44,950 nucleotides of DNA from assembly GCA_947626965.1 (NCBI GenBank), contig CANQUH010000011.1:1-44950 (forward strand), written 5' to 3'. The stretch comes from an uncultured Lachnospiraceae bacterium. GTDB taxonomy: Bacteria > Bacillota > Clostridia > Lachnospirales > Lachnospiraceae. The number at the start of each line of letters is the position of its first letter. Position 1 is the stretch's first letter. Under the pieces are notes generated by a model. It did not search any database. It had not been told where the DNA came from and was given only the letters and a program-made list of their open reading frames with translations. Positions 15,163 to 44,485 of the stretch are shown one piece after another. The position numbers and the translations under genes are program-made.

Positions 15163-16290
15163 GTTACCTTCACCATGGATGAGGGCGCGCAGGTAAGCGT
15201 AGACGGAGAAAATATTGCAGACAATGGAACGGCAATGGCCCAGGATGGCAAAATTGTCTTTTCGGCGTGGGCAAAGGACGGCTATGAGATTACCAGCGTG
15301 CTGGTGGACGGCGAGAAGGACGCCCGCCACAATGGAGACAGCACAACGGAATATGTCATAGAAGGCATCAAGACCGACGAGACAGTGGTCAGCGTGAGCA
15401 CGCAGGCGCTGGATACAGAAGCATCGGAAACCGGGGAGGACTCCGCAGTAAAGAACGTAGTCACATTCCAGGTTGCTGAGGGAGCGGCGGTGACCGTGGA
15501 CGGCGAAGATGTCGCGGACAACGGAACGGCAATGGCAAAAGACGGAACCATTGTCTTTTTTGCGTTTCCAAAAGACGGCTATGAGATCACCAGCGTCATC
15601 TTTGACGGCGAGCACGAAACGCGGAAGACAAGCGATGAGAGCGGGAACGAATACATCATCGAGGGAATCCAGACGGACGAGACGGTGGTCAGCGTAAGCG
15701 CGCAGCCGGTGGACGACGGGATCAGAAGGAACGTCGTCACATTTGAAGTCGCCAAAGGCGCGGTTGTGACCGTGGACGGCGAGAATGTCGCGGACGGCGA
15801 AACGGCGATGGCAAAGGACGGGACCATCATCTTTACGGCAGTTCCGGAGGAAGGGTACGAAATCACGAGCGTCATCTTCGACGGCGACCACGAGACGCGG
15901 AAGACGAGCGATGAGAGCGGGAACGAGTATATCCTTGAGGGGATTCAGACGGATGAGACCGTGATCAGCGTGAGTGCGAAGGGGCCGGAAGCTGAGGAAA
16001 CCGAGACCGAGACTGAGCCGGGAGCGGCAAAGAATGAGGTCAGCTTCAATGTAGAAGAAGGGCTCACCGTGACGTTAAATGGCGAAGATGTCACAAACAA
16101 GACGGTGGAAACGGGAAAGAAAAAGATCACATTCGAAGTAGAGCCTGAGGAAGGATATGAAATCGGGGAGGTTATTGCTGAAGCGGACGGAGAAGAAGCC
16201 GAAGTAACAGAGAACGGAAACGGAAAATATACCATTAAGGGACTTGCGGCGACCAATGAGACTCTTGTCAAGATTGCGTCGGAGCCGTCG
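15163..16290 (+). repeat. Four N-terminal modules of the giant protein
   Basis: Copies start at about 15163, 15460, 15736 and 16039. Each has a VTF strand, an EG-VTVDGE turn, NGTAMAKDG (absent in copy 4), GYEITSVIFDG, and IQTDETVVSVSA. Copies 2 and 3 share long stretches of nearly identical protein; copy 4 has diverged. The first copy begins upstream of the ATG at 15175, which shows that the ATG is not the true start. Confidence 0.75.
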
Positions 16291-22200: not shown

Positions 22201-25200
22201 CCAAGACCGAATCCGGAAGTTCCGGTTCCGAAGGAAGATCAAAATCCTGACTGGTCAGTGGAAAAGACTGTGGTGAATGAAGGCACGGCAGGCGGAAACG
22301 CGTTTAAGGTCGGCGAAGTGATCCAGTATCAGATCGTTGTGGAGAACACCGGGAATGTAACGCTGAATGATCTGGAAGTAGCGGATGCCATGTTTAAGGA
22401 TATCCACAATGTTAATGTGTATGGAGATGTCACGCATACATGGAGAGGAAACACTCTGATTGTGAATAATCTTGCACCTGGCAAGCGTGCAGTGGTGACT
22501 TACAGCTATACAGTTACGGAAGAGGATGTCCTGACCGGAAAGGTGGAAAATACCGCGACCGTAAGTGAAGGCGAAAAGAGCAAATCAGATGACGCAGATG
22601 CCAATACGGAAATTGCAGTAAAGGAGCTGTCTTCAACAAAGAAACTGACCAATAAAGGCACCGGCAAAGACGGAGCATTTAAAGCGGGCGAGACAGCAGA
22701 GTTTGATATTGTAGTGACCAACGACGGCAACATTACACAGAAAAATGTGATCGTGGCTGAGGCTCTTGAGGGAGCGGTAATTAAAGAAGGCGAAGGCTAT
22801 TCGATCAACGGAAGAGGTCAGGCAGTGATCGGTGAACTGAAGCCGGGCAAGTCGGTGACAGTGAAAGCGGCTTATACAGTGACGCAGAAAGACATCGACA
22901 GCAAAGCCGAGCTTAAGAATATCGCGAAGGTAAGTGGCGAAGGAACTACACCTGATCCTGAACCGGTGCCGATTCCGAAGGAAGAACAGAATCCGGACTT
23001 TGAGGTTACAAAGATACAGATGACTCGGCCGAGTAGCTATAAGTTGGGCGAGCATGTAAATTATCTGCTCAAGGTGGAGAACACAGGCAACATGACACTG
23101 AATCTGAATGTCAGCGATATCTTGGGCAATGAGACGGTGAATCTGTCAGTGGCAGAAGTCCAGATGAATTCTATCAGGAGCACATTTGTGGGTCACTCAG
23201 ATTCTGTAGTGCTTATAATGCCGCCGGGAGCAATCGTGACATTCCAGTACAGTCATACGGTGACGGAGGAGGATATCCTCACTCTGAATGGAGAACTGGT
23301 TAACACTGCGACAGCGGTGTTTGAAGACACGAAGAAACAGGCGGAAGTCAAAGTCGGCATTGAGACTCCGAACCCGCATCTGACGGTGGAGAAGAAGACG
23401 ACGAGCAGGCCCAAGAACGGAAGCACCTATGCTCTGGGTGAGAAGATCGAGTACAGCATTACCGTAAAGAATGATGGAAATCTTACCATTAAAGATGTTA
23501 CGGTGAAAGATGAACTGGTCGGAAAAGAATGGTCAGCGGGGACTCTCACACCGGGAGCAAGCCAGACGTTTACAGCAGAGTATGTGGTGACGGAGGCTGA
23601 TATCGCGAAGGATCCTGGTTTTGTAACGAATGAGGCAACTGCCGATGGAAAAGGTCCGGATGAAGAGCATGAGCCGGATGTTACACCTGGTAAGACTACA
23701 GATCCGACAGATCCGGTAAAGAAGGCAGTGACAGTTGAAAAAGAGATTATCAACAGCGGCAATACTTTCAGCGCCGGAGAGATCATCCGCTATCAGGTGA
23801 CGGTTCGCAATGAAGGAAACCAAACCAGAAATCTGGTACTGACCGATACCTTTGGCCTTAAGAATGCAAATGTTTACTTTGCGGATTTGAATGTCACGTA
23901 CAGCATGAATGAGGATGGTTCTCTGAACCTGAATCTGCCGGGCGGAACAAGAGCGGTTGTGACTTATGATTATGAAGTAACGATGCGTGATATCGAGCTC
24001 GGACCGGATCTTAGGAATACGGCTGTGGTAAGTGATAAGGATGGCGAAGCAGGACGTGACACTGCGACTGCGACGATTGTAGACGAAGTGAGAGAGCTTC
24101 TGCTTAACAAAAAACTGACGAATGCGGGAACTGGTGAAAACGGAACCTTCAAGGCAGGCGAGAAAGCAGAATTTGACATTACTGTCACGAACAACGGAAA
24201 CACCGTTCGAAATATCGAGGTGAAGGAGAAACTTGAAGGCGCCGTGATCGTGGAAGGCGAAGGCTATACAGTCGAAAATAACAAAGCTGTGATTAAAGGG
24301 CTTGCGCCGGGCGAGACGGTGACTGTAAAGGCAGCCTATACGCTGAAACAGGAAGATATTGATAACAATGAGACTGGGGAGTTTGCCAACATCGCGGCAG
24401 TGAACGGAGAAAATACGCCGCCTGCACCGATTCCGACGGAACCGCGGAATCCGGGACTGTCCGTGACAAAGACAGTGACGAATGCGGGTACGAGCGATAA
24501 GACCGGTGAAGATGGTAAGAAACTGTTCAAAGCCGGCGATACAGTCGAGTTTGATGTTGCAGTTAATAACACGGGCAATACGACGCAGGCAAGAAGAACG
24601 GTTATAGTTACGGAACAGATGGAAGGCGCGAAGTTTGTAAGCGACGGCAGCGTGCTCTACAGTGTGCTTGAAGATGGAAAGAAAGCACAGATCAATGTCG
24701 ATATGGTGCCGGGTATGCCAGGTATGCCGATAATCCTGAAGGCGGTATATACCGTTACACAGGAAGATATTGACGAAGGCAGACAACTTACAAATATAGT
24801 CATGGCTGACGGCGACAATGGTACGAATCCTGATCCGAGAGATGAGGAAAAGATTCCGACTGAGCCAAAAGAACCGGGCCTGACAGCTGCAAAGACGCTG
24901 ACGAATGCAGGAACAGGTGAGAATGGAGCATTCAAGGCAGGCGAGACAGCGGCATTTGACATCGAGGTAACGAATACCGGCAACACGACACAGAAGGACG
25001 TGGTTGTGACAGAGCAGCTTGCAGGCGCAGTGATCGTGGCGGGCGAAGGCTACACGATCAATGAGGCAGGCCAGGCAGTGATTGGAACAATAGCTCCGGA
25101 AGCGACGGTAACTGTAAAAGCAACGTATGAAGTGAAACAGGCTGACATTGATTCGGAGAATACGCTGAAGAACATAGCAGTAATCAGCGGCGGTGATCCG

Positions 25201-28200
25201 ACCGAGCCGGTACCAAATCCGGAAGTTGAGATTCCGAGAGAGCCGAAGAATCCGGGCCTGACGGCGTCTAAGACAGTAACGAACGCACCGGCAGGCGGTT
25301 TCAAGGCAGGCGAGACAGCGAAGTTTGATATTACAGTAACCAATAGCGGAAATACGACGCAGACGGATGTCGTGGTAGAGGAACAGCTGGCAGGCGCAGA
25401 GATTGTGGAAGGCAAAGGCTACACGATCAATGAAGCAGGCCAGGCGGTGATCGCGGAGATGGCACCGAAGGCAGAAGTAGTCGTGAAGGCAGCCTATACA
25501 GTGTCTCAGGACGATATTGACAATGATGCCGAACTGAAGAACATCGCACTGGTGAAAGGTGATAACGGAGAAGATTTAGATCCGACACCGGAGGTTGAGA
25601 TTCCGGAGGAGCCGAAGAATCCGGGCCTGACAGCTGCAAAGACGCTGACGAATGCAGGAACTGGTGAGAACGGAGCATTCAAGGCAGGCGATACAGCAGC
25701 CTTTGACATCACAGTGACAAACAGCGGCAACACGACACAGACCAATGTGACAATAAGTGAACAGCTCGCGGATGCGGTAATCGTACCGGGAACGGGTTAC
25801 ACGATTAACGAGGACGGTCAGGCAGTGATCGCGGAGATGGCGCCTGGAGCGGTGGTAGTTGTAAAAGCAACGTACACAGTGAAGCAGTCCGACATTGATT
25901 CTGTTGAGGAACTGAAGAATATTGCGGTGGTTAATGGAGACAACGGAGAAGATCCGGATCCGACGCCGGAGGTTGACATTCCGGAGGAGGATCAGAGGAA
26001 GGGTCTGTCCGCAGTCAAGACAGTGACTAATATTCCGGAGAGCGGATTCTTCAGAGCAGGCGAGACAGCAGAGTTTGACATCGCGGTAACGAATACAGGC
26101 AATACGACGCAGAAGGACGTGATTGTAACAGAGCAGCTTGAAGATGCAGTGATCGTGGCAGGCGAAGGCTACACGGTCAATGATGCAGGCCAGGCGGTGA
26201 TTGGAACAATAGCTCCGAAAGCGACGGTAACTGTAAAAGCGACGTATGAAGTGAAGCAGTCCGACATTGATTCTGAGGGTACGCTGAAGAACGTAGCGGC
26301 AATCGGCGGCGGTGATCCGACCAATCCGGTACCGGATCCGGAAGTTGAGATCCCGAAGGAACCGAAAGAGCCGGGTCTGACGGCTAACAAGACGGTGACG
26401 AACGCACCGGCAGGCGGCTTCAAGGCAGGCGAGACAGCGAAGTTTGACATCACGGTAACAAATACTGGTAATACGACGCAGACGGATGTCGTGGTAGCGG
26501 AACAGCTGGCAGGAGCAGAGATTGTGGAAGGCGAAGGCTACACGATCAATGAGGACGGCCAGGCAGTGATCGCGGAGATGGCTCCGGATGCGGTGGTAAT
26601 CGTAAAAGCGGAGTATACCGTGACGCAGGAAGATATTGATTCCGATGAAGAGCTGAAGAACATCGTGAAGGTGGAACCGGAGAATGGTCCGGATCCGGAG
26701 GTAACCATTCCGGAAGAGCCGAAGAACCCGGCGCTGTCATCTGCAAAGACAGTGACAAACAAGGGAACCGGCGAGAACGGAGCGTTCAAGGCAGGCGAGA
26801 CAGCGGAGTTTAATATCACAGTAAAGAATACAGGCAATATGACGCAGACGAATGTGGTCGTAGCGGAGCAGCTGGCAGGCGCGGCGATTGTGGAAGGCGA
26901 AGGCTACACGATCAACGAAGCAGGCCAGGCGGTAATCGCGGAGATGGCTCCGGACGCGGCGGTAGTGGTGAAAGCGGCGTATGAGGTAACGCAGGAGGAT
27001 ATTGATTCCAACGCGGAACTGACGAATATTGCGCTGGTAGAGGGAGACAACGGTACGAATCCTGATCCGGAACCGGAAATCACGATCCCGACCGAGCCGA
27101 AGAACGGCCATGTAACGATCACCAAGACGACAACGAGCACACCGGCAAACGGTGAGGCGTATGTCCTTGGAGAGACAATTACTTACAGCATCACAGCAGA
27201 GAACGATGGCAACCTGACACTGACTGATGTGGTAGTAACCGATGAACTGACAGGTGATTCCTGGACGGTTGGAACACTTGAGCCGGGTGAGACGAGTGAA
27301 GCATTTACAGCATCCCATGTGGTGACGGAGGCTGACATCCTCGCAGGAAGCGTGGTGAACGTGGCGACGGCGACGGGAACGAGTCCTGATCCTGAGACAC
27401 CGCCGACGGTTGTTCCGGGCAATACGGAAGACCCGACGGAGCCGAAGGACGGCCATCTGACCATCGCAAAGACGGTGACAGGCACACCGGAGAACGGTGA
27501 GGCATATGCCCTTGGCGAGACAATTACTTACAGCATCACAGCGACAAACGACGGCAACCTGACGCTGACTAATGTAGTGGTGACGGATGCGTTGACGGGA
27601 GACAGCTGGACAATCGCGGGCCTCGCGCCGGGAGCAAGTGAAAGCTTCACGGCAGAGCATGTGGTGACGGAGGCTGACATCCTCGCGGGAAGCGTGGTGA
27701 ACGTGGCGACAGCGACGGGAACGAGCCCGGATCCGGAGGAGCCGGATGTACCGGTAATACCGGGTACGGAAGAGATCCAGACGGATCCGAAGGAAGGTCA
27801 TCTGACGATTACCAAGGAAGCGGCGGGCACACCGGCAAACGGTGAGACATACGTTCTTGGCGAGACAGTTACTTATAATATTACAGCGGCAAACGACGGC
27901 AACCTGACAATCACAGATATCACGGTGGCGGATGAGCTGACGGGAGACGAGTGGACGATTGAGTCTCTTGCACCGGGAGCAAGCGAGAGCTTCACAGCCG
28001 CCCATGTGGTGACGGAGGCGGACATCCTCGCGGGAAGCGTGGTGAACGTGGCGACGGCAACGGGCACAAGCCCGGATCCGGATGAACCGGACGTACCGGT
28101 AGATCCGGGTACGGAAGAAGTGACGACCGAACCGAAGGACGGCCATCTGACCATCGCCAAGGCGACGACGAGCACGCCGGCAAACGGAACAGCCTATGAG

Positions 28201-31005
28201 CTCGGAGAGACAATCACCTACAGCATCACGGCAGTGAACGACGGCAACCTGACGATCACGGATATCACGGTGACGGATGAGCTGACAGCTGACAGCTGGA
28301 CAGTGGAAAGCCTTGCACCGGGTGAGAGCCAGACCTTTGCGGCATCCCACGTGGTGACGGAGGCGGATACCCTTGCGGGCAGCGTGGTGAACACGGCTGT
28401 GGCAGCGGGAACGAGCCCGGATCCGGAGGAACCGGACGTGCCGGTAACGCCTGGTGAGACGGAAGACCCGGTCGAGACGCCGGCCCCGAGCCTGTACGTT
28501 GAGAAGACGGCGGCGCAGGCGGAAGGCGGCTACGCGCTGGGCGGCGTGGTTACTTATACAATCCGGGTAGTGAACAACGGAAACACGGACGTCAGCGGAA
28601 TCACCGTGAATGACCCGCTGACCGGGAACACCTGGACAGTGGATGCCCTTGCGGAAGGCGGGGAGGCAGCCTTTACAGCCACCCATGTGGTGACGGAGGC
28701 GGACATCCTTGCGGGCAGCGTAACGAATGTGGCGACGGCGGCGGGAACGGCGCCGGACGGAAGCACGGTGGAGTCTGAGGACAGCGCGACAGTCATAACC
28801 GAGGAAAGCAGAGGCCATATCACAGTGGCAAAGACGGCGACAAGCACGCCGGCGAACGGGACGGCCTACACGCTTGGCGAGACGGTTACTTATGAGATTA
28901 CAGCAGCAAATGACGGCAACCTGACAATCACGGACATCACGGTAACGGATGAACTGACCGGAGACAGCTGGACAGTGGAGAGCCTTGCGCCGGGTGCGGA
29001 CCAGACCTTCACAACCACCCATGTGGTAACGGAGGCGGACATTTCCGCGGGCAGCGTGCTGAACGTAGCGACGGCAGCGGGAACGAGCCCGGATCCGGAG
29101 GAGCCGGAAGTACCGGTGACGCCGGGCCAGGAGGAAGTCCTGACGGAGGACAGGAACCCGGCGGTCGCGATCGACAAGGCAGTGACCTCGACGCCGGCGG
29201 CAGCGAGCGGAAGGTACGCGGCGGGCGAGACCGTCACCTACCAGGTAACCGTGACCAACACAGGAAACCTGACACTTGAGAACCTTACACTGGAAGACAT
29301 GATCACCAGGCCGGGCGGAGCGCAGGTGGTTCCGGAAGGAATTGAGGAAGGCCTTGCGGGCGTTGAATCCCTGGCGCCGGGCGAGTCGGCAGTTGTCACC
29401 TACAGCTATGTGGTGACGGAGGCGGACCTTGGAGGAAGCCTGGTCAACAACGCGGTTGTGGAAGGGACGCCGGTCATCCCGGACCCGACGCCGGAGACGC
29501 CGGAACTGCAGCCGCAGGACAATGACAGCGAGACCGTCCTGACGGAGGAGCCTGCAGACAGCACAATCACAATCAGCAAGACGAACGTGGACGGACTCAC
29601 AGGAGAGCTGCTGTCCCTGCCGGGAGCACAGTTCTACGTGGCGCTCTTCGCGGATGAGCAGCTGACCCAGCGGGTAAGCGGTGTGCAGACGCTTGCCTTT
29701 GGAGAGGACCAGGCGACGGTATCGGCAGCGTTCGAGGGCCTGGAGCCTGGAACCTACTACATCGCTGAGACGGACGCGGAAGGAAATGTCCTGACGGGCG
29801 GCGAGTACGACGGAGGCACCTTTACACCGGAATACGCGGGCGGCCAGCAGGTAGTGATCACGGAGAGCGGGCAGAGCACGGCAATAGCGTTCCAGAACCT
29901 GTTCGCGGTACTGCCGGAGGAAGGCTACAGCCGCATGGCGGAGCTGACAGTCACGAAAGAAGTGAGAGATACGAGCGGGGCGCCGATGAACTCGGATGAG
30001 ACGTTCTACGCGGGACTCTTCTATGACGAGGCATGCACGATCCCGGCGGAAGGCGTATCGCAACAGATCATCCCGTTTGAAATGAACGGAGGATCTTCGG
30101 CGAGCGCAACAGCGGAAGTAACGATCCTGGGCGACGGAAGCGACACGGTGCTGTATGTGACGGAGGTCACGGCGGACGGAACGCCGGTGAAGGACGCGGC
30201 GGACTTCCCGTATGAAGTGACGGTGGAAGGCGGAAAGGTGACGGTGAACGCGGATTCTCCGGAAGCAAGCGCAAGGATCATCAACGTGGCGGAAGAGCCG
30301 GGAAGGAGTTATTACGAAGCCGGCGATCTGACCGTCACGAAGGAAGTAAGAAACGCGGAAGGCCGTCTGGTCAATTCGGATGAGACGTTCTACGCGGGAA
30401 TCTTCTCCGATTCAGCGTACACGACGCTGGCGGACAACGTATCGCAGCCGGTAGTGGAACTGAACATGCAGGGAGCTTCGAAGATGAGCGTGAGCGTGGA
30501 AGTGAGCGTGGCGGATGAAGAGAGCGACACGATCTTGTACGTGACCGAGGTGACGGAAGACGGGAAGCCGGTATCCGGAAGCGCGAGCTTCGCATATGAT
30601 GTGACGGTAGAGGGCGGAACGGTCGTAATGAACGGGAACACCCTGGAAGGAAATGTAAAGATCGTCAATGCGGAGGCATCCGCGGAAGAGCCGGGAGAAC
30701 CGGAGGAGCCTGGAACAGAAGAACCTGGAACAGAGGAGCCTGGAACAGAGGAGCCTGGAACCGAGGAATCCGGAACGGAAGAGCCTGGAACGGAGAAGCC
30801 GGGAACAGGAGACAACGGAACGGACGACGGAGACAACGACAGAACGGGCATGAGCGAAGCCGAGACAGAGGGAAGCGAGACCGTCCAGAGCGTCAGGACA
30901 GGAGACGAGACGCCGGTCATGACATGGATGATCATATTCCTTGCGGCAGCCCTTGCAATGTTCCTGACAGCAGTTTCCTGCTTCAGGAAGAGAAGAAGCA
31001 GATAA
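15175..31005 (+). CDS. Giant repetitive cell-wall-anchored surface protein (body)
   Basis: The open frame covers 5,276 residues from the ATG at 15175; the coding part really starts at the G tract. In order: four modules of about 92-101 residues (VTF..EG..VTVDGE..., to residue 370), a bacterial Ig-like 2 domain (376-472), two InlB-type repeats ending LYAIW, a Cna-B domain (758-855), five 97-residue Cna-B repeats (860-1343), and about 28 DUF11/DUF7507-like domains of roughly 105-125 residues (1352-4793). Three prealbumin-like or SpaA-like domains follow (4796-5165), with a PGTEE-repeat linker. The end is a sorting signal: VRTGDETP at 5240, one helix and KRRSR. The anchor is a VxTGD variant of LPxTG. 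No sortase gene is in the window. It is likely an adhesin, folded as a long stalk with isopeptide bonds. Confidence 0.85.
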   Translation: MDEGAQVSVDGENIADNGTAMAQDGKIVFSAWAKDGYEITSVLVDGEKDARHNGDSTTEYVIEGIKTDETVVSVSTQALDTEASETGEDSAVKNVVTFQVAEGAAVTVDGEDVADNGTAMAKDGTIVFFAFPKDGYEITSVIFDGEHETRKTSDESGNEYIIEGIQTDETVVSVSAQPVDDGIRRNVVTFEVAKGAVVTVDGENVADGETAMAKDGTIIFTAVPEEGYEITSVIFDGDHETRKTSDESGNEYILEGIQTDETVISVSAKGPEAEETETETEPGAAKNEVSFNVEEGLTVTLNGEDVTNKTVETGKKKITFEVEPEEGYEIGEVIAEADGEEAEVTENGNGKYTIKGLAATNETLVKIASEPSGIAPISISGPTAVEVGETITLESSENNGDNHQWTSDDKNIATVEGKKSTSGGFLGLGGTTIYTGEVTGIAPGVVKITHTYTTGFENNQQTHTETYEVTVKAASLRTVTFNHNTEDNGYGSGNAPASRSVKKGGTITLPDQDNMTARNGYVFVGWSTNNGAATALGDINKPENTAVYPAGSSYNVEKNITLYAIWAKQNEKATFYIRLDGKMPKEPGNYNISDYTSGIPVNGALKEGYFYFNSQGVDAQLNKEPTEEQIKAVIDNNSQINKTYRIGTDYVVWYVIKYQYNGLFSGWGWHVDGVLYTNEKVRLTYDENVSVGYSSYVQGIPMGQQYDKNTSVTVEGTPTWPGHTFQGWALDKEGPVKYHAGDQFTITEDTVLYAIWDEITTSVTVTKQWIDGNSSTRPGNIEVRLKQDERNYGDAVILNSENGWTYTWRNLPQTDETGEKHAYTVEETAVPGYKTTYGESQTSSNGNVSITVTNTRNDIDAKINVTGTKTWVDGGKTHDNATELTLTLSRTSAKAGSEAESVEATATWEGNKYTFKDVAKYDAEGYEYTYSVAETAIEGYDTTSAGNNFTNTMSNIGEKTSVTGTKTWVDGGRTHNNANEVKLTLSRTSAKAGSTAETVEATAEWDGNKYTFADVAKYDAEGYEYTYSVAEAKVEGYTTTSAGNNFTNTMDGIDTKINVSGTKTWVDGGKTHDNAKELTLTLSRTSAKAGSKAENVEATATWEGDTYTFSELPKYDAEGYEYTYSVAETEVEGYTTEQVGNNFTNTMDGIDAKIVVTGTKTWVDGGKEHNNADELELTLSRTSAKAGSEAETVEATATWEGDTYTFSGLPKYDAEGYEYTYSVAEAAIEGYTTDQDGNNFTNTVNTINDKIDVSGTKTWVDGGKAHDNATELTLTLSRTSAKAGSKAETVEATATWDGNTYTFADVAKYDAEGYEYTYSVAEAEVKGYTTTSDGNNFTNTMNNDEPAGNKTRGTVADEYKVTETLSDGSTRDLLKVGAEVTYTIEYYNHTNEAANVTITDTLPAGTELVKVSEGGNYSDGTVTWTISNVGPFKRGFVTVTIRITEEILNTPSANPEVTNEASIQVGDEDEIKVSSGTDYVAKPGLTSEKKLTNGMNKNGSERKFKAGETATFDIVVKNTGNTTQYGVVVTDTMAGAKIVARDGYTVNADGTATIEKIPVGKSVTVQAEYTVTQDDIDNQTKLTNTATVSGEGTTTGPDPEPIPTEERKLNFEIAKELVTWPTTYKAGEHVDYLIAVRNTGNTTLTINLADVMGETAYDLNAKGVQTNMNPYKGCTITESSEGSVKLEMQPGSAVTFQYSHRVTEQDILNGELKNIATATPEEETMAPKSAEVTVKFEKPNPHLTVEKKVTSTPKNGSTYALGETVEYEITVTNDGNLTISDVTVKDDLTGLEQKVGELKPGEPYKVTTSYTVTEEDIRKGSVTNVATADGTPPNGTKLEVTPSEAKVPTDPVIEKMTVKKEIVNGEHEFGLGEVIRYMVTIENEGNQTREIVADDTFSLEHANVYFANSATKYHKDEEGNLHIKIAPNSRVVVTYEHKVTAEDIEAGQWLKNTVTMREESGEEIGSDWKEAKLTRKIKDLSVVKTLTNSGSGKDGTFKAGETATFDITVTNKGNTIRRNIVIKETLAGAKIVEGTGYTINEEGSAVIDELAPEETVTVQAEYTVTQKDIDKGGPLSNNLSVEAEGEPDPNVPTEDIPLEPRNPEWSVEKTAINEGRGTAGGKFRYGETVQYQVVITNKGNTTLDGLKMNDALFGDEINVYGEGVTWKRNGNTLVLSGLAPEKTAVVTYSHTITEADIKNAAEAEGKVVNTVTTSMDRISEEAKAEVGVEGERRSLSAEKKLTNSGSGKNGRFKAGEKAEFDIVVRNTGNVTQGKVVVEEFLSGAVFVEGDGYRVENGKAIIEKLAPKAEVTIKAEYTVTQADIDNDEGLKNIAYVEGDEGTDPRPNPEVPVPKEDQNPDWSVEKTVVNEGTAGGNAFKVGEVIQYQIVVENTGNVTLNDLEVADAMFKDIHNVNVYGDVTHTWRGNTLIVNNLAPGKRAVVTYSYTVTEEDVLTGKVENTATVSEGEKSKSDDADANTEIAVKELSSTKKLTNKGTGKDGAFKAGETAEFDIVVTNDGNITQKNVIVAEALEGAVIKEGEGYSINGRGQAVIGELKPGKSVTVKAAYTVTQKDIDSKAELKNIAKVSGEGTTPDPEPVPIPKEEQNPDFEVTKIQMTRPSSYKLGEHVNYLLKVENTGNMTLNLNVSDILGNETVNLSVAEVQMNSIRSTFVGHSDSVVLIMPPGAIVTFQYSHTVTEEDILTLNGELVNTATAVFEDTKKQAEVKVGIETPNPHLTVEKKTTSRPKNGSTYALGEKIEYSITVKNDGNLTIKDVTVKDELVGKEWSAGTLTPGASQTFTAEYVVTEADIAKDPGFVTNEATADGKGPDEEHEPDVTPGKTTDPTDPVKKAVTVEKEIINSGNTFSAGEIIRYQVTVRNEGNQTRNLVLTDTFGLKNANVYFADLNVTYSMNEDGSLNLNLPGGTRAVVTYDYEVTMRDIELGPDLRNTAVVSDKDGEAGRDTATATIVDEVRELLLNKKLTNAGTGENGTFKAGEKAEFDITVTNNGNTVRNIEVKEKLEGAVIVEGEGYTVENNKAVIKGLAPGETVTVKAAYTLKQEDIDNNETGEFANIAAVNGENTPPAPIPTEPRNPGLSVTKTVTNAGTSDKTGEDGKKLFKAGDTVEFDVAVNNTGNTTQARRTVIVTEQMEGAKFVSDGSVLYSVLEDGKKAQINVDMVPGMPGMPIILKAVYTVTQEDIDEGRQLTNIVMADGDNGTNPDPRDEEKIPTEPKEPGLTAAKTLTNAGTGENGAFKAGETAAFDIEVTNTGNTTQKDVVVTEQLAGAVIVAGEGYTINEAGQAVIGTIAPEATVTVKATYEVKQADIDSENTLKNIAVISGGDPTEPVPNPEVEIPREPKNPGLTASKTVTNAPAGGFKAGETAKFDITVTNSGNTTQTDVVVEEQLAGAEIVEGKGYTINEAGQAVIAEMAPKAEVVVKAAYTVSQDDIDNDAELKNIALVKGDNGEDLDPTPEVEIPEEPKNPGLTAAKTLTNAGTGENGAFKAGDTAAFDITVTNSGNTTQTNVTISEQLADAVIVPGTGYTINEDGQAVIAEMAPGAVVVVKATYTVKQSDIDSVEELKNIAVVNGDNGEDPDPTPEVDIPEEDQRKGLSAVKTVTNIPESGFFRAGETAEFDIAVTNTGNTTQKDVIVTEQLEDAVIVAGEGYTVNDAGQAVIGTIAPKATVTVKATYEVKQSDIDSEGTLKNVAAIGGGDPTNPVPDPEVEIPKEPKEPGLTANKTVTNAPAGGFKAGETAKFDITVTNTGNTTQTDVVVAEQLAGAEIVEGEGYTINEDGQAVIAEMAPDAVVIVKAEYTVTQEDIDSDEELKNIVKVEPENGPDPEVTIPEEPKNPALSSAKTVTNKGTGENGAFKAGETAEFNITVKNTGNMTQTNVVVAEQLAGAAIVEGEGYTINEAGQAVIAEMAPDAAVVVKAAYEVTQEDIDSNAELTNIALVEGDNGTNPDPEPEITIPTEPKNGHVTITKTTTSTPANGEAYVLGETITYSITAENDGNLTLTDVVVTDELTGDSWTVGTLEPGETSEAFTASHVVTEADILAGSVVNVATATGTSPDPETPPTVVPGNTEDPTEPKDGHLTIAKTVTGTPENGEAYALGETITYSITATNDGNLTLTNVVVTDALTGDSWTIAGLAPGASESFTAEHVVTEADILAGSVVNVATATGTSPDPEEPDVPVIPGTEEIQTDPKEGHLTITKEAAGTPANGETYVLGETVTYNITAANDGNLTITDITVADELTGDEWTIESLAPGASESFTAAHVVTEADILAGSVVNVATATGTSPDPDEPDVPVDPGTEEVTTEPKDGHLTIAKATTSTPANGTAYELGETITYSITAVNDGNLTITDITVTDELTADSWTVESLAPGESQTFAASHVVTEADTLAGSVVNTAVAAGTSPDPEEPDVPVTPGETEDPVETPAPSLYVEKTAAQAEGGYALGGVVTYTIRVVNNGNTDVSGITVNDPLTGNTWTVDALAEGGEAAFTATHVVTEADILAGSVTNVATAAGTAPDGSTVESEDSATVITEESRGHITVAKTATSTPANGTAYTLGETVTYEITAANDGNLTITDITVTDELTGDSWTVESLAPGADQTFTTTHVVTEADISAGSVLNVATAAGTSPDPEEPEVPVTPGQEEVLTEDRNPAVAIDKAVTSTPAAASGRYAAGETVTYQVTVTNTGNLTLENLTLEDMITRPGGAQVVPEGIEEGLAGVESLAPGESAVVTYSYVVTEADLGGSLVNNAVVEGTPVIPDPTPETPELQPQDNDSETVLTEEPADSTITISKTNVDGLTGELLSLPGAQFYVALFADEQLTQRVSGVQTLAFGEDQATVSAAFEGLEPGTYYIAETDAEGNVLTGGEYDGGTFTPEYAGGQQVVITESGQSTAIAFQNLFAVLPEEGYSRMAELTVTKEVRDTSGAPMNSDETFYAGLFYDEACTIPAEGVSQQIIPFEMNGGSSASATAEVTILGDGSDTVLYVTEVTADGTPVKDAADFPYEVTVEGGKVTVNADSPEASARIINVAEEPGRSYYEAGDLTVTKEVRNAEGRLVNSDETFYAGIFSDSAYTTLADNVSQPVVELNMQGASKMSVSVEVSVADEESDTILYVTEVTEDGKPVSGSASFAYDVTVEGGTVVMNGNTLEGNVKIVNAEASAEEPGEPEEPGTEEPGTEEPGTEEPGTEESGTEEPGTEKPGTGDNGTDDGDNDRTGMSEAETEGSETVQSVRTGDETPVMTWMIIFLAAALAMFLTAVSCFRKRRSR
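17752..19203 (+). repeat. Five tandem 291-bp Cna-B repeats
   Basis: The codon for the V before TGTKTW or SGTKTW occurs at 17767, 18058, 18349, 18640 and 18931, an exact period of 291 bp (97 residues). Units contain TKTWVDGGK, LTLSRTSAKAGS, YDAEGYEYTYSVAE and GNNFTNT. Nucleotide identity between units is high, so unit number may vary by recombination. Confidence 0.9.
19620..29560 (+). repeat. Array of DUF11/DUF7507-like domains
   Basis: About 27 consecutive domains follow one plain DUF11 domain. Each has a start like LTAAKTLTNAGTGE, an FKAGETAEFDI strand, a VTNTGNTTQ turn, and a late VTQEDID segment. Three subtypes alternate. The last seven or so (27100-29100) are a GHLTI...NDGNLT...VVTEADILAGSV subtype with strongly GC-rich codons. 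Confidence 0.85.
30709..30800 (+). repeat. EEPGT linker repeat before the wall anchor
   Basis: Fifteen-base units encode EEPGT and variants (EESGT, EKPGT) six or seven times, giving a flexible acidic wall-spanning linker. The same EEPGT-type units recur in the secreted protein at 31488. Confidence 0.8.
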
Positions 31006-36715: not shown

Positions 36716-38011
36716 TTATCCGTTAAGCAGGCCGGCATTCCTCAGATTTGACAGGAGTGTGTTGAGCTGAGTTGCCAGTTCAGCTGTGGTCGCGGTTGCA
36801 GGGTCGATATCTGCGACAGCTGCGGCGGGTGTGACTGTGGCGGCTATACCAGCCGGTCCCATTGGTCCAGTGGGTCCAGTAGGGCCGGGAGGACCTCCAG
36901 GTCCCACAAGGCCAGGAGTTCCGGTGGCTCCGGTGGCTCCCGTAGCCCCTGTCGCTCCGGTCGCACCAGTTGGTCCAGTAGCGCCGGTGGCTCCCGTGGG
37001 TCCCGGAATTCCGTCCGTGCCGGTAGGTCCAGTCGCGCCGGTGGGTCCAGTCGGTCCGATGGGTCCCACAGCGCCATCAGGCCCGGTCGCACCGGTCGGC
37101 CCAGTCGGCCCGGTAGGTCCTGGAATTCCGTCCGCGCCAGTGGGCCCAGTCGCGCCGGTAGGTCCAGTGGCTCCTGTAACGCCGTCCGCGCCGGTAGGTC
37201 CAGTCGGTCCGATGGGTCCCACAGCGCCATCAGGCCCGGTCGCACCCGTGGGCCCGGTAGGTCCCGGAGTTCCGTCCGCGCCGGTGGGCCCAGTAGCTCC
37301 CGTAGGTCCAGTGGCTCCTGTAGCGCCGTCCGCGCCGGTAGGTCCAGTCGGTCCGATGGGTCCCACAGCGCCATCAGGACCGGTCGGCCCAGTCGGCCCG
37401 GTAGGTCCCGGAGTTCCGTCCGCGCCGGTGGGCCCGATCACGCCCGTAGGTCCGGTTGGTCCGGCTACGCCTGCAATGCCGGTCGCGCCCGTGGGTCCAG
37501 TGGCTCCTGTAGCGCCGTCCGCACCAGTAGCCCCCGTAGGCCCAGTCGGTCCAATGGGTCCCATAGCGCCGTCCGCACCAGTAGCCCCCGTAAGCCCAGT
37601 CGGTCCAATGGGTCCCACAGCGCCGGTCGCGCCCGTGGGTCCAGTAGCCCCGACCGGTCCCGCAGGCCCCGTAGCTCCAGTAGTTCCTGTGACTCCTCTT
37701 GGTCCCGTGGGTCCCGTGATACCGTTAGCTCCTGTGGCGCCCCGCGGTCCGGTAGGTCCAGTGATGCCATTGGCGCCTGTGGGCCCCGTCGGTCCAATCA
37801 GTCCGGTCGCGCCCGTGGGTCCAGTAGCTCCCGTAGCGCCTGTGATACCATTAGCACCGGCAGGACCGGTCGCACCAGTCGCCCCCGTCGGTCCGGTCGC
37901 GCCTGTGATTCCATTTGACGATCCAGCCGGTCCTGTTGGTCCAGTAGCTCCAGTGGGTCCTGTGGGCCCAGGAACGCCGGGGAACCCCATCGGCCCATAT
38001 GGTAGTAACAA
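36716..38011 (-). CDS. Collagen-like protein, 3' part of an interrupted gene
   Basis: This part encodes about 430 residues. Almost all are Gly-X-Y triplets rich in [11 protein letters not shown] short non-collagen end follows ([20 protein letters not shown], then [17 protein letters not shown]), typical of clostridial exosporium-type collagen-like proteins. It has no credible start: the first codon usable is TTG at 38009-38011 and no ribosome site precedes it. Its first [16 protein letters not shown] segment repeats the last segment of the reading frame at 42302-42662. The true 5' part of the gene is 4.4 kb away across a mobile element. Confidence 0.85.
37924..37997. repeat. Left direct repeat of the inserted element
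   Basis: A 74-bp sequence identical at 69 positions to 42302-42375. The longest exact match is 26 bp (37953-37978 and 42331-42356), the most likely place for the recombination crossover. On the left side the repeat is still in the collagen-like frame. Confidence 0.85.
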
Positions 38012-38133
38012 AATGGAAAGGTTTTTGAAAACTGTGTTTGTATTGCTTGAAAAGCGCTGTGTATGAGAGGCATGGCGTTTTTGTCGAAATATAAACTTTA
38101 ATGATAAATATGAGATAAAATCTCAAATAACGA

Positions 38134-38161
38134 TTTACAAATTTGAATTTTTATCTATAAT
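38134..38161 (+). promoter_or_regulatory. Promoter of the element's ATPase operon
   Basis: TTTACA at 38134-38139 and TATAAT at 38156-38161 with a 16-nt spacer. A small palindrome, GAGAT AAA ATCTC at 38112-38124, lies just upstream and could be a regulator site. Confidence 0.65.
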
Positions 38162-38187
38162 AGATAATAAGAATGGAGGTAATCATT

Positions 38188-39414
38188 ATGTTATGCCAAT
38201 TTACAGTGAAAAATTTTAAAAGTATACGGGATGAAATTACTTTTGATATGCAGGCGGCAGCTATTTCAGAACACGAGAATAAAGTGATCAAAGACAAGGA
38301 CGGTGAAGTTTTTTTGCCGGTATCAGCAATTTACGGACCAAACGGCGGAGGAAAGTCGAATGTCCTGGAAGCGTTGTATACTTTAGACTCTAAGATTTTG
38401 AGGCCGCTTTGTGCAACCTGTGATAAAACCAACTGTGACTATAAGATGAGAAAGGTTCCGGTTGAGCCATTTGCTTTTTCCGAATCGGGAAAAGAGAATC
38501 CTACCGAATTTGAAGTGTTTTTTCGGACTTTAAAAGCAGAATATAGATATATTCTCCATATCAAAAAAGATCGTATTGTTTATGAGAGCCTTGATCGGAT
38601 TAAGTTGGAGACAAAACGTCGTTCGGCATTGTTTAAAAGAACTCCTGATCATGTGGAGTTAAAGGGAATTTTTGGAAAATTCAAAGTCAGTGAAGATCTG
38701 TCGGAGACGCTGCCGCTGCTTTCATATATGGGAATCACATACAAGAAGAATGAAATTGTTCAGGATGTTCTCGACTGGTTTGAAGAGTCGATTGATTTTT
38801 TGAACTACGGGAACCCGTTTCAGGAGCTGCGTACTGCCATTGCCAGATCAGAAGAAATAAAATCCTTAGTCCTTGACATGATTCGGGAAATGGACTTGGA
38901 TATTGAAGACTTTCGTATAGAAGAAAGAGGCGAAGACAGCATAGAAATCTTTACAAAACATATTGTTGGAAAGTATAGTGCAGAGATTACTTTGGCGGAA
39001 GAATCCAGTGGAACGAAAAAATTGTTTGGGCTTTTGCCGTTTATTGCAAATAGCTTATATTATGGGACTACATTGGTGATTGACGAGTTGGATGCCAAGA
39101 TTCATCCGGTATTGCTGCAGTATATCATCGAACTTTTTACAAATATGAATATCAATAAAAAGCATGGACAACTGATTTTTACGTCTCATGATTTATCTAC
39201 AATGAACAATGAAGTGTTTCGGAGGGATGAAATCTGGTTTGTAGCAAAAGGGAACGGGCAGAATTCAGAATTATACTCCCTGGTCGAATTTAAAAATGAT
39301 AAAGGTGAATCTGTCCGCAAGGATGCAAAGTATGATAAACAGTATCTGGAAGGCAAATATGGCGCAGATCCATATCTTAGAAAGATTATAGACTGGAGTG
39401 ATGTCAATGCCTAA
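38188..39414 (+). CDS. AAA/ABC-type ATPase, RloA-like
   Basis: The 408-residue protein has the OLD/RecF-like ATPase layout: FTVKNFKSIRDEI at the start, Walker A GPNGGGKS (residues 50-57), an SSGT signature (273-276), Walker B TLVIDELD (295-302) and FTSHD (331-335). A Cys cluster (CATCDKTNC, 75-83) may bind metal. Such ATPases pair with RloB-type proteins. GGAGG at 38175-38179 favours the ATG at 38188 over the one at 38173. Its stop overlaps the next gene's start. The pair is probably a defence or element-maintenance module, by analogy with ATPase-TOPRIM systems such as PARIS. Confidence 0.75.
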   Translation: MLCQFTVKNFKSIRDEITFDMQAAAISEHENKVIKDKDGEVFLPVSAIYGPNGGGKSNVLEALYTLDSKILRPLCATCDKTNCDYKMRKVPVEPFAFSESGKENPTEFEVFFRTLKAEYRYILHIKKDRIVYESLDRIKLETKRRSALFKRTPDHVELKGIFGKFKVSEDLSETLPLLSYMGITYKKNEIVQDVLDWFEESIDFLNYGNPFQELRTAIARSEEIKSLVLDMIREMDLDIEDFRIEERGEDSIEIFTKHIVGKYSAEITLAEESSGTKKLFGLLPFIANSLYYGTTLVIDELDAKIHPVLLQYIIELFTNMNINKKHGQLIFTSHDLSTMNNEVFRRDEIWFVAKGNGQNSELYSLVEFKNDKGESVRKDAKYDKQYLEGKYGADPYLRKIIDWSDVNA

Positions 39415-40108
39415 AAAAGCCGGAATGGAAACATGGAAGAAAAAGCGCCGTCAGGAACATCTGGAGCAGAAAAAATATCGCTATTATATTTTCTGCGAGG
39501 GAGAACAGACAGAGCCACAATATTTTGCGGGATTTAAGAGACTGATCGAAGATAATCCGATTTATCGGGAAATGGTACTGATCCAAATCGAACCATGTGC
39601 AGCAGAGACAATGCGGGTGATCGGAGCCGCTGAAAAATATGTTTCCAAAAATCAAATTACAAAAGGGCAGATATGGTGCGTCTATGATAAGGACAGTTTT
39701 CCTGCGAAAGATTTTAATGGTGTGGTTGAACGGACAGACAAATTAAATCAGGAAAATCCGGAGTTACAATATCATTGTGCATGGTCGAATGAGTGTATTG
39801 AATTCTGGTTCGTGCTCCATTTTGCATATTATACAGCCAATAATCATCGAAGTGAGTATAGTTCATTTTTGAATGATAAATTCAGGGAATTGGGGATTGG
39901 CAAATATCAGAAAAACAGGAAGGATATTTTTGAGATCCTGATGGAAAAGGGTAATCCGAAACTGGCAATACGATATGCAAAGAGGATTATCAAAGACGGA
40001 CAAGGGAAGACGCCGACAGAAATTGCACCTGGAACGAAGGTGTATGAGCTGGCAGAAGAATTAGCGAAATATTTACCGGAAGAAATAAAAAGACATTTTG
40101 TGAGCTGA
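39407..40108 (+). CDS. RloB-family protein, possible TOPRIM-like nuclease
   Basis: The 233-residue protein has the RloB features YYIFCEGEQTEPQYFAGF near residue 28 and IWCVYDKDSFPAKDF near residue 88. The Glu of CEGE and the DxD of YDKDSF match the acidic residues of a TOPRIM fold, so a nuclease role is likely but unproven. A later NECIEFWFVLHFAYYTA segment is also typical of the family. GGAG at 39395-39398 favours the ATG at 39407, 8 nt inside the ATPase gene, so the two proteins are translationally coupled and probably act together. Confidence 0.8.
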   Translation: MPKKAGMETWKKKRRQEHLEQKKYRYYIFCEGEQTEPQYFAGFKRLIEDNPIYREMVLIQIEPCAAETMRVIGAAEKYVSKNQITKGQIWCVYDKDSFPAKDFNGVVERTDKLNQENPELQYHCAWSNECIEFWFVLHFAYYTANNHRSEYSSFLNDKFRELGIGKYQKNRKDIFEILMEKGNPKLAIRYAKRIIKDGQGKTPTEIAPGTKVYELAEELAKYLPEEIKRHFVS

Positions 40109-40118
40109 TGAAAAAGGA

Positions 40119-40361
40119 ATGGAACAGTGTTTTGTTCGCATAGTTATAGAGGAAAGTAAAACAGAGGAAAATAATATCTTGAAAAAGCGCAAACTGAATT
40201 ATTGCTTTCATGATCCAAATGCTCCAGCTGTATCAGTAAATTATATATTGAAAATTTTAATTGAGGCAAACAAAGAAGAAGTCGAACAATTGCTGCAGAG
40301 CCAGAATGCAAACGAAGATAATGGAGAATACAAATATGGAAAAAGATGTGATATTGGATAG
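40119..40361 (+). CDS. Small protein of recombinase-linked elements (80 aa)
   Basis: The sequence contains KKRKLNYCFHDPNAPAVSVNYILKILIEANKEEVEQLLQS. Small proteins with a LNYxFHxPN...YxLKxxxEAN pattern are familiar to me from serine-recombinase elements of Clostridia, but their function is unknown. The ribosome site is poor (AAAAAGG directly against the ATG), so the start is uncertain. It lies 10 nt after RloB and overlaps the next frame by 26 nt. Confidence 0.5.
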   Translation: MEQCFVRIVIEESKTEENNILKKRKLNYCFHDPNAPAVSVNYILKILIEANKEEVEQLLQSQNANEDNGEYKYGKRCDIG

Positions 40362-40725
40362 TATAAGAAATGTAAATATTCGACAGTATAAAGCGGATGT
40401 AGGGTTTAGGACTCTGATTGAAGGCGTAAAAGAGGCCTTGTTGGATCAGTTTGAATTAGAAGAGCTTCATATTAATTTAATAGGAGAAAATGGGAGATCT
40501 GTTAATGTGGATTATGCTGCGCTGCCGATTGAACTGAGAAGACAAATTGATTATACAACGATCACTGTGGTAGAAATCAAAGTTGATAATGAAGAGAGAG
40601 CCGGAGGTGTTTCGGCAAATATCTGTAAATCTGAACAAGAGAGGTTAGCGTTTGTCTGGTCAGGAGAAGAGAAATGGAATATATCTGCCGGTTTTATAAT
40701 ATTCGTGTTTCATAAATTTGAGTAA
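40336..40725 (+). CDS. Unknown protein in the element (129 aa)
   Basis: I do not recognise it. From the ATG at 40336 (GGAG at 40323-40326) it reads MEKDVILDSIRNVNIRQYK, then FRTLIEGVKEALLDQFELEELHINLIGENG and FVWSGEEKWNISAGFIIFVF. It is soluble and moderately acidic, with alternating helix and strand character. It sits between the 80-residue protein and the recombinase. An in-frame ATG at 40321 is also possible. Confidence 0.45.
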   Translation: MEKDVILDSIRNVNIRQYKADVGFRTLIEGVKEALLDQFELEELHINLIGENGRSVNVDYAALPIELRRQIDYTTITVVEIKVDNEERAGGVSANICKSEQERLAFVWSGEEKWNISAGFIIFVFHKFE

Positions 40726-40774
40726 AAATCATATATGTGTATAGATTAGAGATACTTATAAAAGGGAATTTTAC

Positions 40775-42268
40775 ATGAACATCGCTGCTTATTGCCGTGT
40801 TTCTACAGATAAAGAAGATCAACTTAACAGTCTGGAAATGCAGAAGCAGTTTTTTTCGGAATATATTCGGCGTACCGGCGGCACTCTTGTCAGGTTATAT
40901 GCGGATGAAGGTATTTCCGGAACAAAAATAAAGAACAGAAAAGAATTTCTTCATATGATGGAGGATGCAGAGCAGGGGCGGTTTGATCTGCTGGTGGTGA
41001 AGGATATATCACGTTTCGCACGAAATACAGTGGATCTTCTGCAGAATATCCGTAAATTAAGGACATGGGGAATTGAGACGCAGTTTCTTACTGCCAATAT
41101 GACCAGTATGGGAAACAGCGAATTTGTACTGACCATTTTTGGAGCACTGGCACAGGAGGAAAGCGCCAATACGTCGAAACGTGTAAAATTTGGAAAGAAG
41201 ATAAATGCGGAAAAGGGAAGAGTTCCTAATCTTGTTTATGGATATGATAAAACTGTCGGCGATTATTTTAACCTTTCCATTAACAAAAAAGAGGCACAGA
41301 TTGTCCGGCAAATTTATCAATGGTACACAGAAGAGGGTTATGGAACTGTCAAAATTTCGAATATGCTGAATGAACGCGGATGCCGGACGAAGCGCAATTG
41401 CAGGTGGAGCCAGAGCGCGGTTTGCCGCATTTTGACAAATAAGCTTTATACTGGAGAGATTATTAATGGAAAACAGGAAGTAACTGATTTTTTGACAGGA
41501 CGGCGCCTTGAAAAAGAAAAGGAAGAATGGATCGTGAAAGAAAGACCGGAATTTCGGATCATTGAGCCGGAAATTTTTGAAAAGGCGCAGGAGATTTTGC
41601 GTATCAGAAATGAGAAATTTCATCTTGATCATGAACGGCAAAGTAATAAATATCTGTTTTCCACGTTAATTAAGTGTAAAGAATGCGGACGGTCATTTCG
41701 GCGGATGGAGCGTACTTATAAAAATACATATGTCCGCTGGGGATGTTCCAGACATAACGGTAAGGGAGCAGATGGCTGTCCCAATGCGGTTGTTGTGGAT
41801 GAGGATGAACTGACAGAAGCATTTACGGAATATTTTACAGAATTATTGAAACAAAAAAAACAGGTAATGTCATATGTGGTCCGGGAAATCCAAAGTATGT
41901 GCAAAAGCGGGAAGGAACAAACCGGTTATAAGAGAGAACTGGAAGCGCAATTGGAAAGGCTGAGCAGAATACGTCGTAAATATATGGATATGTATGCGGA
42001 TGACCTGATTTCTCTCGATGAATTGAATGGGAAAATTAAAGAGATACGCATGGAATCAGAAAATCTGGAAAAGGAATGGAAGAAGTTGGGGCAATGTGCA
42101 GTAGAAGAAGAACAACTGGAAAATATTTTAAATCAGACATTTAAGGGAGTGGAAGATATCGTGAATGTAAAAAAGATGACAAATGCCCAAATAAAGCAGG
42201 TAATCGAAAGGATTGAGGTGGATAAAAATGGAAACCTGGATATTTATCTGCATGTATTCGATAGATAG
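40775..42268 (+). CDS. Large serine recombinase
   Basis: The 497-residue protein has a resolvase-type catalytic domain with the nucleophile Ser10 in [13 protein letters not shown], then [29 protein letters not shown] and the [12 protein letters not shown] helix. It continues with a recombinase domain ([44 protein letters not shown]) and a zinc ribbon ([12 protein letters not shown] with later [14 protein letters not shown]). A coiled coil (about 370-440) ends it. This is the TnpX/large integrase group that inserts and excises DNA. AAGGGA lies 8 nt before the ATG. It ends 34 nt before the right-hand direct repeat. Confidence 0.93.
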
Positions 42269-42662
42269 AAGTGGGAGACATTCCAAATAAAAGCAACCGT
42301 GCAGCCGGTCCTGTTGGTCCGGTTGCCCCCGTGGGTCCTGTGGGCCCAGGAACGCCAGGGAACCCCATCGGCCCAGCCGGTCCCGTCGGCCCCGTGGGTC
42401 CGGGAACACCCGGATCTCCAGGAAATCCCGTTGGCCCAGTAGGCCCTGTGGGTCCGGCAGGCCCAGGAATACCAGGGAAGCCCATTGGTCCTGTGGGCCC
42501 AGTCGGTCCGGGACATCCCATTGGTCCCATCGGCCCAGTCGGTCCGGGGCATCCCATCGGTCCCATTGGGCCGGCAGGCCCGGTCGGTCCCTGACCGCTG
42601 CAGCAGTTGGAGGATCTCCCGCAGCGCTGGTTTGCGTTTGAATTATTGAAAAAGCCGTTCAT
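42141..42662 (-). CDS. Collagen-like protein, 5' part of the interrupted gene
   Basis: The frame starts with a strong AAAGGAGGG 7 nt before its ATG. It encodes a polar, cysteine-bearing front ([19 protein letters not shown]) and then about 95 residues of Gly-X-Y repeats ending [15 protein letters not shown]. At the right-hand repeat boundary the collagen pattern stops, and the frame runs another 54 codons antisense to the recombinase ([12 protein letters not shown]...) before ending at 42141. That tail is not a natural protein end. The Cys-rich front may crosslink the protein in a spore outer layer. Confidence 0.85.
42302..42375. repeat. Right direct repeat of the inserted element
   Basis: Partner of 37924-37997, 69 of 74 positions identical. 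Here the repeat is continuous with the 5' part of the collagen-like gene, and the element side begins left of 42302. Confidence 0.85.
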
Positions 42663-44376: not shown

Positions 44377-44394
44377 GAGTAACGAGTATCTCTG

Positions 44395-44485
44395 CAATTT
44401 AGCAAACTTATCGAAAGGTAGGGACGCAAAGCCACAGGGTCTAAAATCCAGAGCACAGGGGATCATGACAGCCGGTTGCCACGTT
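44395..44485 (+). ncRNA. Cyclic-di-GMP-I riboswitch (GEMM)
   Basis: The two conserved blocks of the class I c-di-GMP aptamer are present: GACGCAAAGC followed by CACAGGGTCTAA at 44424-44444, and GACAGCCGGTTGCC at 44467-44480, with an AT-rich variable arm between. A terminator follows about 40 nt later, so c-di-GMP probably controls read-through into the lipoprotein gene at 44903. Confidence 0.85.

Follow-up and report, generated by a model that had tools for sequence, protein, structure and literature searches.

The 44,950-nucleotide stretch of DNA analyzed here (the window) comes from a single draft genome of an uncultured, gut-type Lachnospiraceae bacterium (G000; 4.29 Mb in 413 contigs) and carries on its reverse strand a gene for a collagen-like protein that is split into a 5' and a 3' part, both of which match the Pfam Collagen family. 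The two parts are separated by an insert of ca. 4.3 kb with a GC content of 0.38, whose forward-strand open reading frames (ORFs) include a large serine recombinase of 497 amino acids (Table 1). An earlier note made from the sequence alone had described the same arrangement, i.e., the halves of a collagen-like gene flanking an element with a large serine recombinase, and our analysis confirms it. The insert very probably belongs to a family of mobile elements that usually split spoIIID, the gene of a mother-cell master regulator of sporulation, carries a pair of AbiL-type genes as cargo, entered the collagen-like gene ectopically at a CA dinucleotide, and would be excisable by recombination between its attachment sites attL and attR.

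The extent of the element differs from what the earlier note had proposed, i.e., excision of 4,378 bp between 74-bp direct repeats. This repeat pair exists (93% identity) but does not mark the ends of the element, which spans 4,306 bp. Because CAGCCGGTCC occurs at 42302 and again 72 bp on, at 42374, the 74-bp pair amounts to one 72-bp tandem unit of GXY repeats plus a CA dinucleotide. As the earlier note had recommended, we compared the locus with an uninterrupted relative, L088, from a genome of the same genus (G007) in which a neighboring gene is 91% identical. The collagen-like gene of L088 is uninterrupted at the insertion place as far as its contig reaches (the contig starts inside this gene, and the 3' end of the gene lies outside it), and both units stand there in tandem (CAGCCGG at 722 and 794). 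Both repeat copies are thus the host gene's own tandem units, which refutes the suggestion that one of them is a captured piece of the gene. When the flanks are joined at the CA, 942 bases align to L088 with a largest gap of 45 bases (score 1359), compared with 870 bases, a 126-base gap, and a score of 1190 for the 4,378-bp join; neither has a gap at the joint itself. In silico removal of 4,306 bp yields an in-frame ORF of 546 residues without internal stop, and the 522-residue ORF that the earlier note had expected after removal of 4,378 bp is in frame as well, though it is not the product that loss of the actual element would give. The frame stays open either way because the two lengths differ by 72 bp. 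Repeat number is variable in the collagen-like gene, and the deciding evidence therefore is that both ends of the insert agree, as far as the CA, with the ends of 11 related elements.

These 11 elements interrupt spoIIID. Their attL reads GT(A/G)-CA followed by an arm of roughly TAyGG..GTaAyaAAAT(A/G)GAACGG, while their attR consists of an arm of roughly GTTCyAAAT....AACC.TA followed by CA and TAArGA (CAAAGA in L050), each with variants. The corresponding joints in the window are GGCC-CA-TATGGTAGTAACAAAATGGAAAGG and TTCCAAATAAAAGCAACCGTG-CA-GCCGG, and CA is the sole sequence common to every joint in the 12 elements. Serine recombinases use a 2-bp core, which the shared CA fits. One further relative, in a Christensenella genome without any SpoIIID that we could find (L008), has a right end reading GAAA-CA-GATGG and, at a distance of ca. 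10 kb within that contig, a left arm after CA; its site lies beside or within an ORF that by eye resembles a methyltransferase.

To delineate the family, genome contigs were scanned with six peptide patterns of the recombinase, which returned 66 related loci (L002-L067; not a complete list), and SpoIIID halves were located there by tblastn with halves of the SpoIIID of the window's host. Half of spoIIID adjoins the recombinase in 60 of the 66 loci. The C-half lies 44-179 bp downstream in 57 of them (in L030 only 13 residues precede the contig end), whereas in L048 it is 2,082 bp away and the N-half is found on the opposite side. In L051 and L052, the N-half is inverted 166 bp from the recombinase, which therefore sits at the opposite element end compared with the rest. 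The remaining six loci comprise three at other sites (L008, L015, and L020), one whose contig ends 63 bases on (L029), and two in which no SpoIIID was found (L059 and L062). Both halves are on the forward strand in 11 loci, and all 11 rejoin in silico as a stop-free SpoIIID frame. A second draw from 397 genomes of the same family as the window's host gave, besides the window's own, 20 loci with a recombinase at E <= 1e-120 (L108-L127). The C-half follows 40-200 bp downstream in 16 of these; L122 stops at a contig edge, and L121, L123, and L127 have no C-half there. Loci adjoining spoIIID span Lachnospiraceae, Oscillospiraceae, and others. Relatives were found neither in viral contigs nor, at E <= 1e-100, in plasmids. 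We also considered a recombinase family dedicated to collagen-like genes and rejected it, since GXY repeats occur in only one of the 66 loci (L004), ca. 4.6 kb from the recombinase, and in none of them next to it.

By sequence comparison, the window copy has the recombinase of the spoIIID-element clade, both att arms, the CA core, and a small protein of ca. 59 amino acids that the family shares. Yet it is located in the collagen-like gene and not in spoIIID, and the genome that harbors it retains an intact spoIIID whose attachment site is vacant. Among the matches listed in a recombinase search of 60 relatives, of which 35 belong to the same genus, the top one within the genus by E-value had 37% identity over ca. 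420 residues, and a piece of 104 residues showed 46%. In a recombinase tree, which left out 10 of the 66 loci (L029, L043, L049, L057, L058, L059, L061, L062, L063, and L065) as well as L122 of the 20, the window copy nests among spoIIID rows in a fork of 65 rows composed of 61 spoIIID rows, three others, and the window (96/93). The six rows at other sites need six separate changes on this tree, so that stray sites look sporadic.

The hosts of these elements were examined for the state of spoIIID. When PF12116 was sought in 27 host genomes, from 27 of the 66 loci, 22 contained SpoIIID solely as separate N and C pieces, their assemblies lacking any whole copy, and in 18 of these 22 a single contig bears both pieces at a distance of about 3.7 to 35 kb. 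Of the other five, G097 has only an N piece and G079, in which the element is elsewhere (L020), a whole gene, while no SpoIIID was found by this profile in G074, G077, and G093. The largest distance is that of the L025 genome (G083:C23:131104-166213), where the halves are ca. 35 kb apart, so some elements of the family may be large. The SpoIVA ATPase is present in 26 of 28 genomes (the 27 hosts and the window's own); among the 22 with split spoIIID, the profile is matched nearly whole in 19, in two pieces in G071 and G089, and partially in G096. These hosts may thus be able to form spores and would need spoIIID rejoined for it, and they probably would have to excise the element in order to sporulate. 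Cultured examples of hosts with split spoIIID are Clostridium fessum, Flavonifractor sp. An82, and Angelakisella massiliensis; a literature search at listing level gave no usable information on sporulation of named hosts. As a separate observation, the two SpoIVA pieces of the L003 genome lie ca. 252 kb apart on one contig (G071:C20:236830-237279 and 489491-489769), which points either to another split sporulation gene or to an artifact of scaffolding or rearrangement.

The small shared protein (MKKRKLNYRFHNPN...) is our candidate for the recombination directionality factor that the earlier note had recommended looking for; a conserved protein with this putative role is indeed present in the window element. 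It has a tblastn match in each of the 11 spoIIID elements whose two ends were read, weakly so in L048 (E 3e-6) and L050 (4e-5), and in 52 of the 66 loci, with eight of the 14 misses having less than 200 bp of upstream sequence. Apart from the recombinase, no protein was as widely shared in a cross-element comparison. Searches of Pfam, NCBIfam, and PHROGs gave no family for it, and comparison with solved structures gave no convincing match (best E 0.26).

Its upstream regions in the relatives suggest how it may be controlled. A sigma-E-like pattern, [ACG]TA-N15-17-CATA, precedes the candidate factor in 43 of 50 cases, compared with 392 of 10,000 random windows. Its strict form, ATA-N16-CATA, does so in 16 of 50, compared with 76 of 10,000. 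GGACAA, which we take to resemble a SpoIIID box (presumably with the consensus GGACAAG), follows within 6 bases after CATA in 20 of 49 upstream regions but in only 33 of 9,800 random windows. The position of this box suggests that SpoIIID would repress the candidate factor; SpoIIID could not activate it because spoIIID itself is split. The recombinase of many relatives has, by eye, a sigma-A-like promoter, and 32 of 57 relatives have TAACAGA[AG] upstream of the recombinase, directly behind the sigma-A-like -10; this motif could serve autoregulation. Its sequence is similar to the SpoIIID box of C. difficile, KRTAACARK (PMC5025042), as well as to the att arm end AGAACGG. C. difficile spoIIID has a sigma-E promoter of the form ATA-N16-CATATATA (PMC3789822). 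Judging from these signals, the layout of the relatives is that of the C. difficile skin element, with a constitutive recombinase and a factor under sigma-E.

Taken together, we propose that the regular attachment site of this serine-recombinase family is a CA dinucleotide inside spoIIID, and that the window copy used the same CA-based reaction to enter an ectopic CA where two GXY tandem units meet, leaving the host's own spoIIID site vacant. Exit would occur by attL x attR recombination with the recombinase and the ca. 59-amino-acid candidate factor, and excision would give back a 546-codon collagen-like gene, with GGCC-CA-GCCGG as the predicted attB join and CCGTG-CA-TATGG as the predicted attP join. 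The window copy itself has no match to the sigma-E-like pattern before the candidate factor, where only the remnant CATAGTTAT is left, and the TAACAGA motif was not found before its recombinase. The ORF of its candidate factor is open, with a probable TTG start, and might be read from the sigma-A-like promoter in front of the defense genes. Since sigma-E control seems eroded in the window copy, excision may be rare, constitutive, or lost.

Several points weigh against this reading and its extension to the family. The evidence for a copy in a collagen gene comes from one genome and a draft of 413 contigs, and no second collagen-gene copy was found that could tell a stray insertion from a new specificity. 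Given its long branch (0.5), the window recombinase may have acquired a new specificity instead of hitting a stray site, and by eye it ends ca. 14 codons earlier than that of L002. The tree was rooted by midpoint, and its bootstrap is unsettled. Nesting and long branch together hence leave two readings, an ectopic insertion or an emerging new specificity. The second draw is not fully separate from the first because the recombinases of L109 and L055 are at zero distance. No match to the candidate factor was found in L010, L012, L024, L042, L051, and L052, each of which has some upstream sequence. The relaxed sigma-E pattern is absent in seven of the 50 factor upstream regions, and CATA followed by GGACAA is unmatched in 29 of 49. 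Both patterns were written after the upstream sequences had been seen, and their controls are random windows of the same loci, with related sequences that are not independent. Finally, the C. difficile box KRTAACARK (PMC5025042) differs from GGACAAG.

Among other explanations, the strongest contender, though we do not favor it, is an ectopic copy that has become unable to leave, with the collagen-like gene simply knocked out. The altered signals before the candidate factor and the recombinase, the probable TTG start, and the long-branched, shortened recombinase would fit such an immobile insertion, but the element retains open main ORFs and the two att arms, and the rejoined gene lacks an internal stop. 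We regard as rather unlikely the skin-type switch that the earlier note had envisaged, in which the element would be cut from the collagen-like gene in the mother cell during sporulation and the protein made only then. It would follow the logic of the spoIIID family with its split genes and sigma-E-like pattern; moreover, the candidate factor ORF is intact, the recombinase domains and both att arms are present, and a host with SpoIVA and spoIIID may sporulate. However, the pattern seen in most siblings is reduced here to its remnant, no spore promoter has been established for the collagen-like gene, and no related locus has GXY repeats next to the recombinase.

A misassembly, i.e., a repetitive collagen gene wrongly joined to an element from elsewhere, comes to mind with a repeat-rich gene in a fragmented draft, but it is very improbable given that both breakpoints coincide exactly with the CA core of the family and that the collagen flanks align in order to L088. 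Least credible of all are the 74-bp repeats as attachment sites with one copy captured from the gene: their high identity, the in-frame ORF after removal of 4,378 bp, and the ungapped joint would be compatible with it, but the tandem units in the uninterrupted stretch of L088, the better overall alignment of the CA join, and the CA-bounded ends common to the related elements rule it out for practical purposes. We retain the ectopically inserted member of the spoIIID family as the best explanation of the insert.

The cargo of the window element consists of adjacent AbiLi and AbiLii genes by PADLOC, i.e., an AAA ATPase next to RloB, and likely is a phage-defense pair. It is organized like the AbiL abortive-infection pair of PADLOC but differs in being the cargo of an element. 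The same pair is found in the 4.9-kb spoIIID element of L007 (73% and 81% identity). Across seven elements from which 10 + 9 proteins were tested, we observed a type II restriction-modification pair with a Mob_Pre relaxase in L003, a nucleotidyltransferase/HepT pair in L022 with close homologues in L034, and a PIN-domain protein in L031, while the tested proteins of L048 (hybrid histidine kinase), L050 (TrkA), and L055 are not defense genes. Defense or toxin-antitoxin cargo is therefore present in several elements, not in each. No phage structural or lysis genes were found by Pfam among the five forward-strand ORFs of the window element; the PHROGs comparison covered the recombinase and the candidate factor.

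Sporulation genes are known targets of intervening elements, with sigK, spsM, spoVFB, gerE, and yabG in print (PMC10747680, PMC5595907). We found no report of a split spoIIID as judged by titles and abstract starts, with most subscription journals outside coverage, and none, at title level, of a prophage in a collagen-like gene. The likening to skin-type elements made by the earlier note is apt, as it fits the family with spoIIID as its usual target. In the mother-cell cascade, spoIIID stands above sigK. Its splitting thus raises a bootstrapping problem, as production of the factor cannot depend on SpoIIID. The C. difficile skin element in sigK shares a large serine recombinase, a sigma-E-controlled small factor gene, a sigma-A-type recombinase promoter, and a split mother-cell regulator, but it is prophage-like with 19 genes, and its 72-amino-acid factor CD1234 needs SpoIIID for full expression (PMC5025042), which is impossible with spoIIID split. 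The B. cereus gin element is likewise non-phage, splits a short mother-cell transcription factor gene, and carries a serine recombinase with an extra factor, GirX, along with a restriction-modification system; it differs in its 28.6 kb, three recombinases, its target gerE, and its host group, the Bacilli (PMC5595907). The C. botulinum yin element also interrupts a sporulation gene and encodes a serine recombinase together with a putative directionality factor of small size, but is prophage-like, targets yabG, and has a 14-bp repeat (PMC10747680).

In C. difficile, the collagen-like protein gene bclA has three orthologues (PMC3789822). Elsewhere in the window, a c-di-GMP-I riboswitch lies at 44391-44483 on the forward strand (Rfam RF01051, 68.4 bits), with, by eye, a similar stretch beside the collagen-like gene of L088. 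A forward-strand ORF of 5,276 amino acids at 15175-31005 is full of DUF7507, DUF11, and Cna_B repeats and probably encodes a giant surface protein. No tRNA was found in the window.

Table 1. Parts of the putative integrated element and of the interrupted collagen-like gene.
Feature	Position	Strand	Basis
Integrated element, 4,306 bp	37996..42301	+	CA core of attL to last base before attR CA; ends of related elements, L088 tandem units
attL core CA	37996..37997	.	Comparison of related element ends
Left att arm (TATGGTAGTAACAAAATGGAAAGG)	37998..38021	+	Similar to left arms of 11 spoIIID elements
Sigma-A-like promoter TTTACA-16-TATAAT before defense genes	38134..38161	+	11/12 matches; scan gave 2 sites in all vs. 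a shuffle mean of 1.7
AAA ATPase, AbiLi-like	38173..39414	+	Pfam AAA_21; PADLOC AbiLi 6e-87; 73% to L007 gene
RloB / AbiLii-like	39398..40108	+	Pfam RloB 7e-39; PADLOC AbiLii; 81% to L007 gene
Candidate recombination directionality factor, family MKKRKLNYRFHNPN	40179..40361	+	TTG start by homology; in-frame ATG at 40119
154-aa ORF, no family found, overlapping candidate factor	40261..40725	+	ORF list, family searches
Large serine recombinase, 497 aa	40775..42268	+	Resolvase, Recombinase, Zn_ribbon_recom domains; PHROG integrase 6e-112
Right att arm (TTCCAAATAAAAGCAACCGTG)	42281..42301	+	Comparison with related element ends
attR core CA	42302..42303	.	Comparison of related element ends
Collagen-like gene, 5' part, ATG at 42662	42304..42662	-	Pfam Collagen; L088 homologue
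Collagen-like gene, 3' part	36716..37995	-	Pfam Collagen
Left 74-bp repeat copy (host tandem unit)	37924..37997	.	Outside element except CA
Right 74-bp repeat copy (host tandem unit)	42302..42375	.	Outside element except CA

On balance, we lean toward a broader interpretation in which Clostridia would carry a widespread, undescribed skin-like family, several members with defense cargo, that splits spoIIID; sigma-E would turn on the factor and regained SpoIIID would shut it off via the GGACAA box as a self-ending excision switch, while the window would represent a jump to a second gene, possibly one for the spore surface. The conserved promoter before the candidate factor offers a testable answer to the bootstrapping problem, and the window copy suggests that a 2-bp core and a tolerant recombinase may allow such elements to reach new target genes. 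As spoIIID looks fragmented in such genomes, gene-based predictions of sporulation could be misled. If our interpretation is true, the sporulation of a number of Clostridia hinges on excising a mobile element that can bring phage defense.

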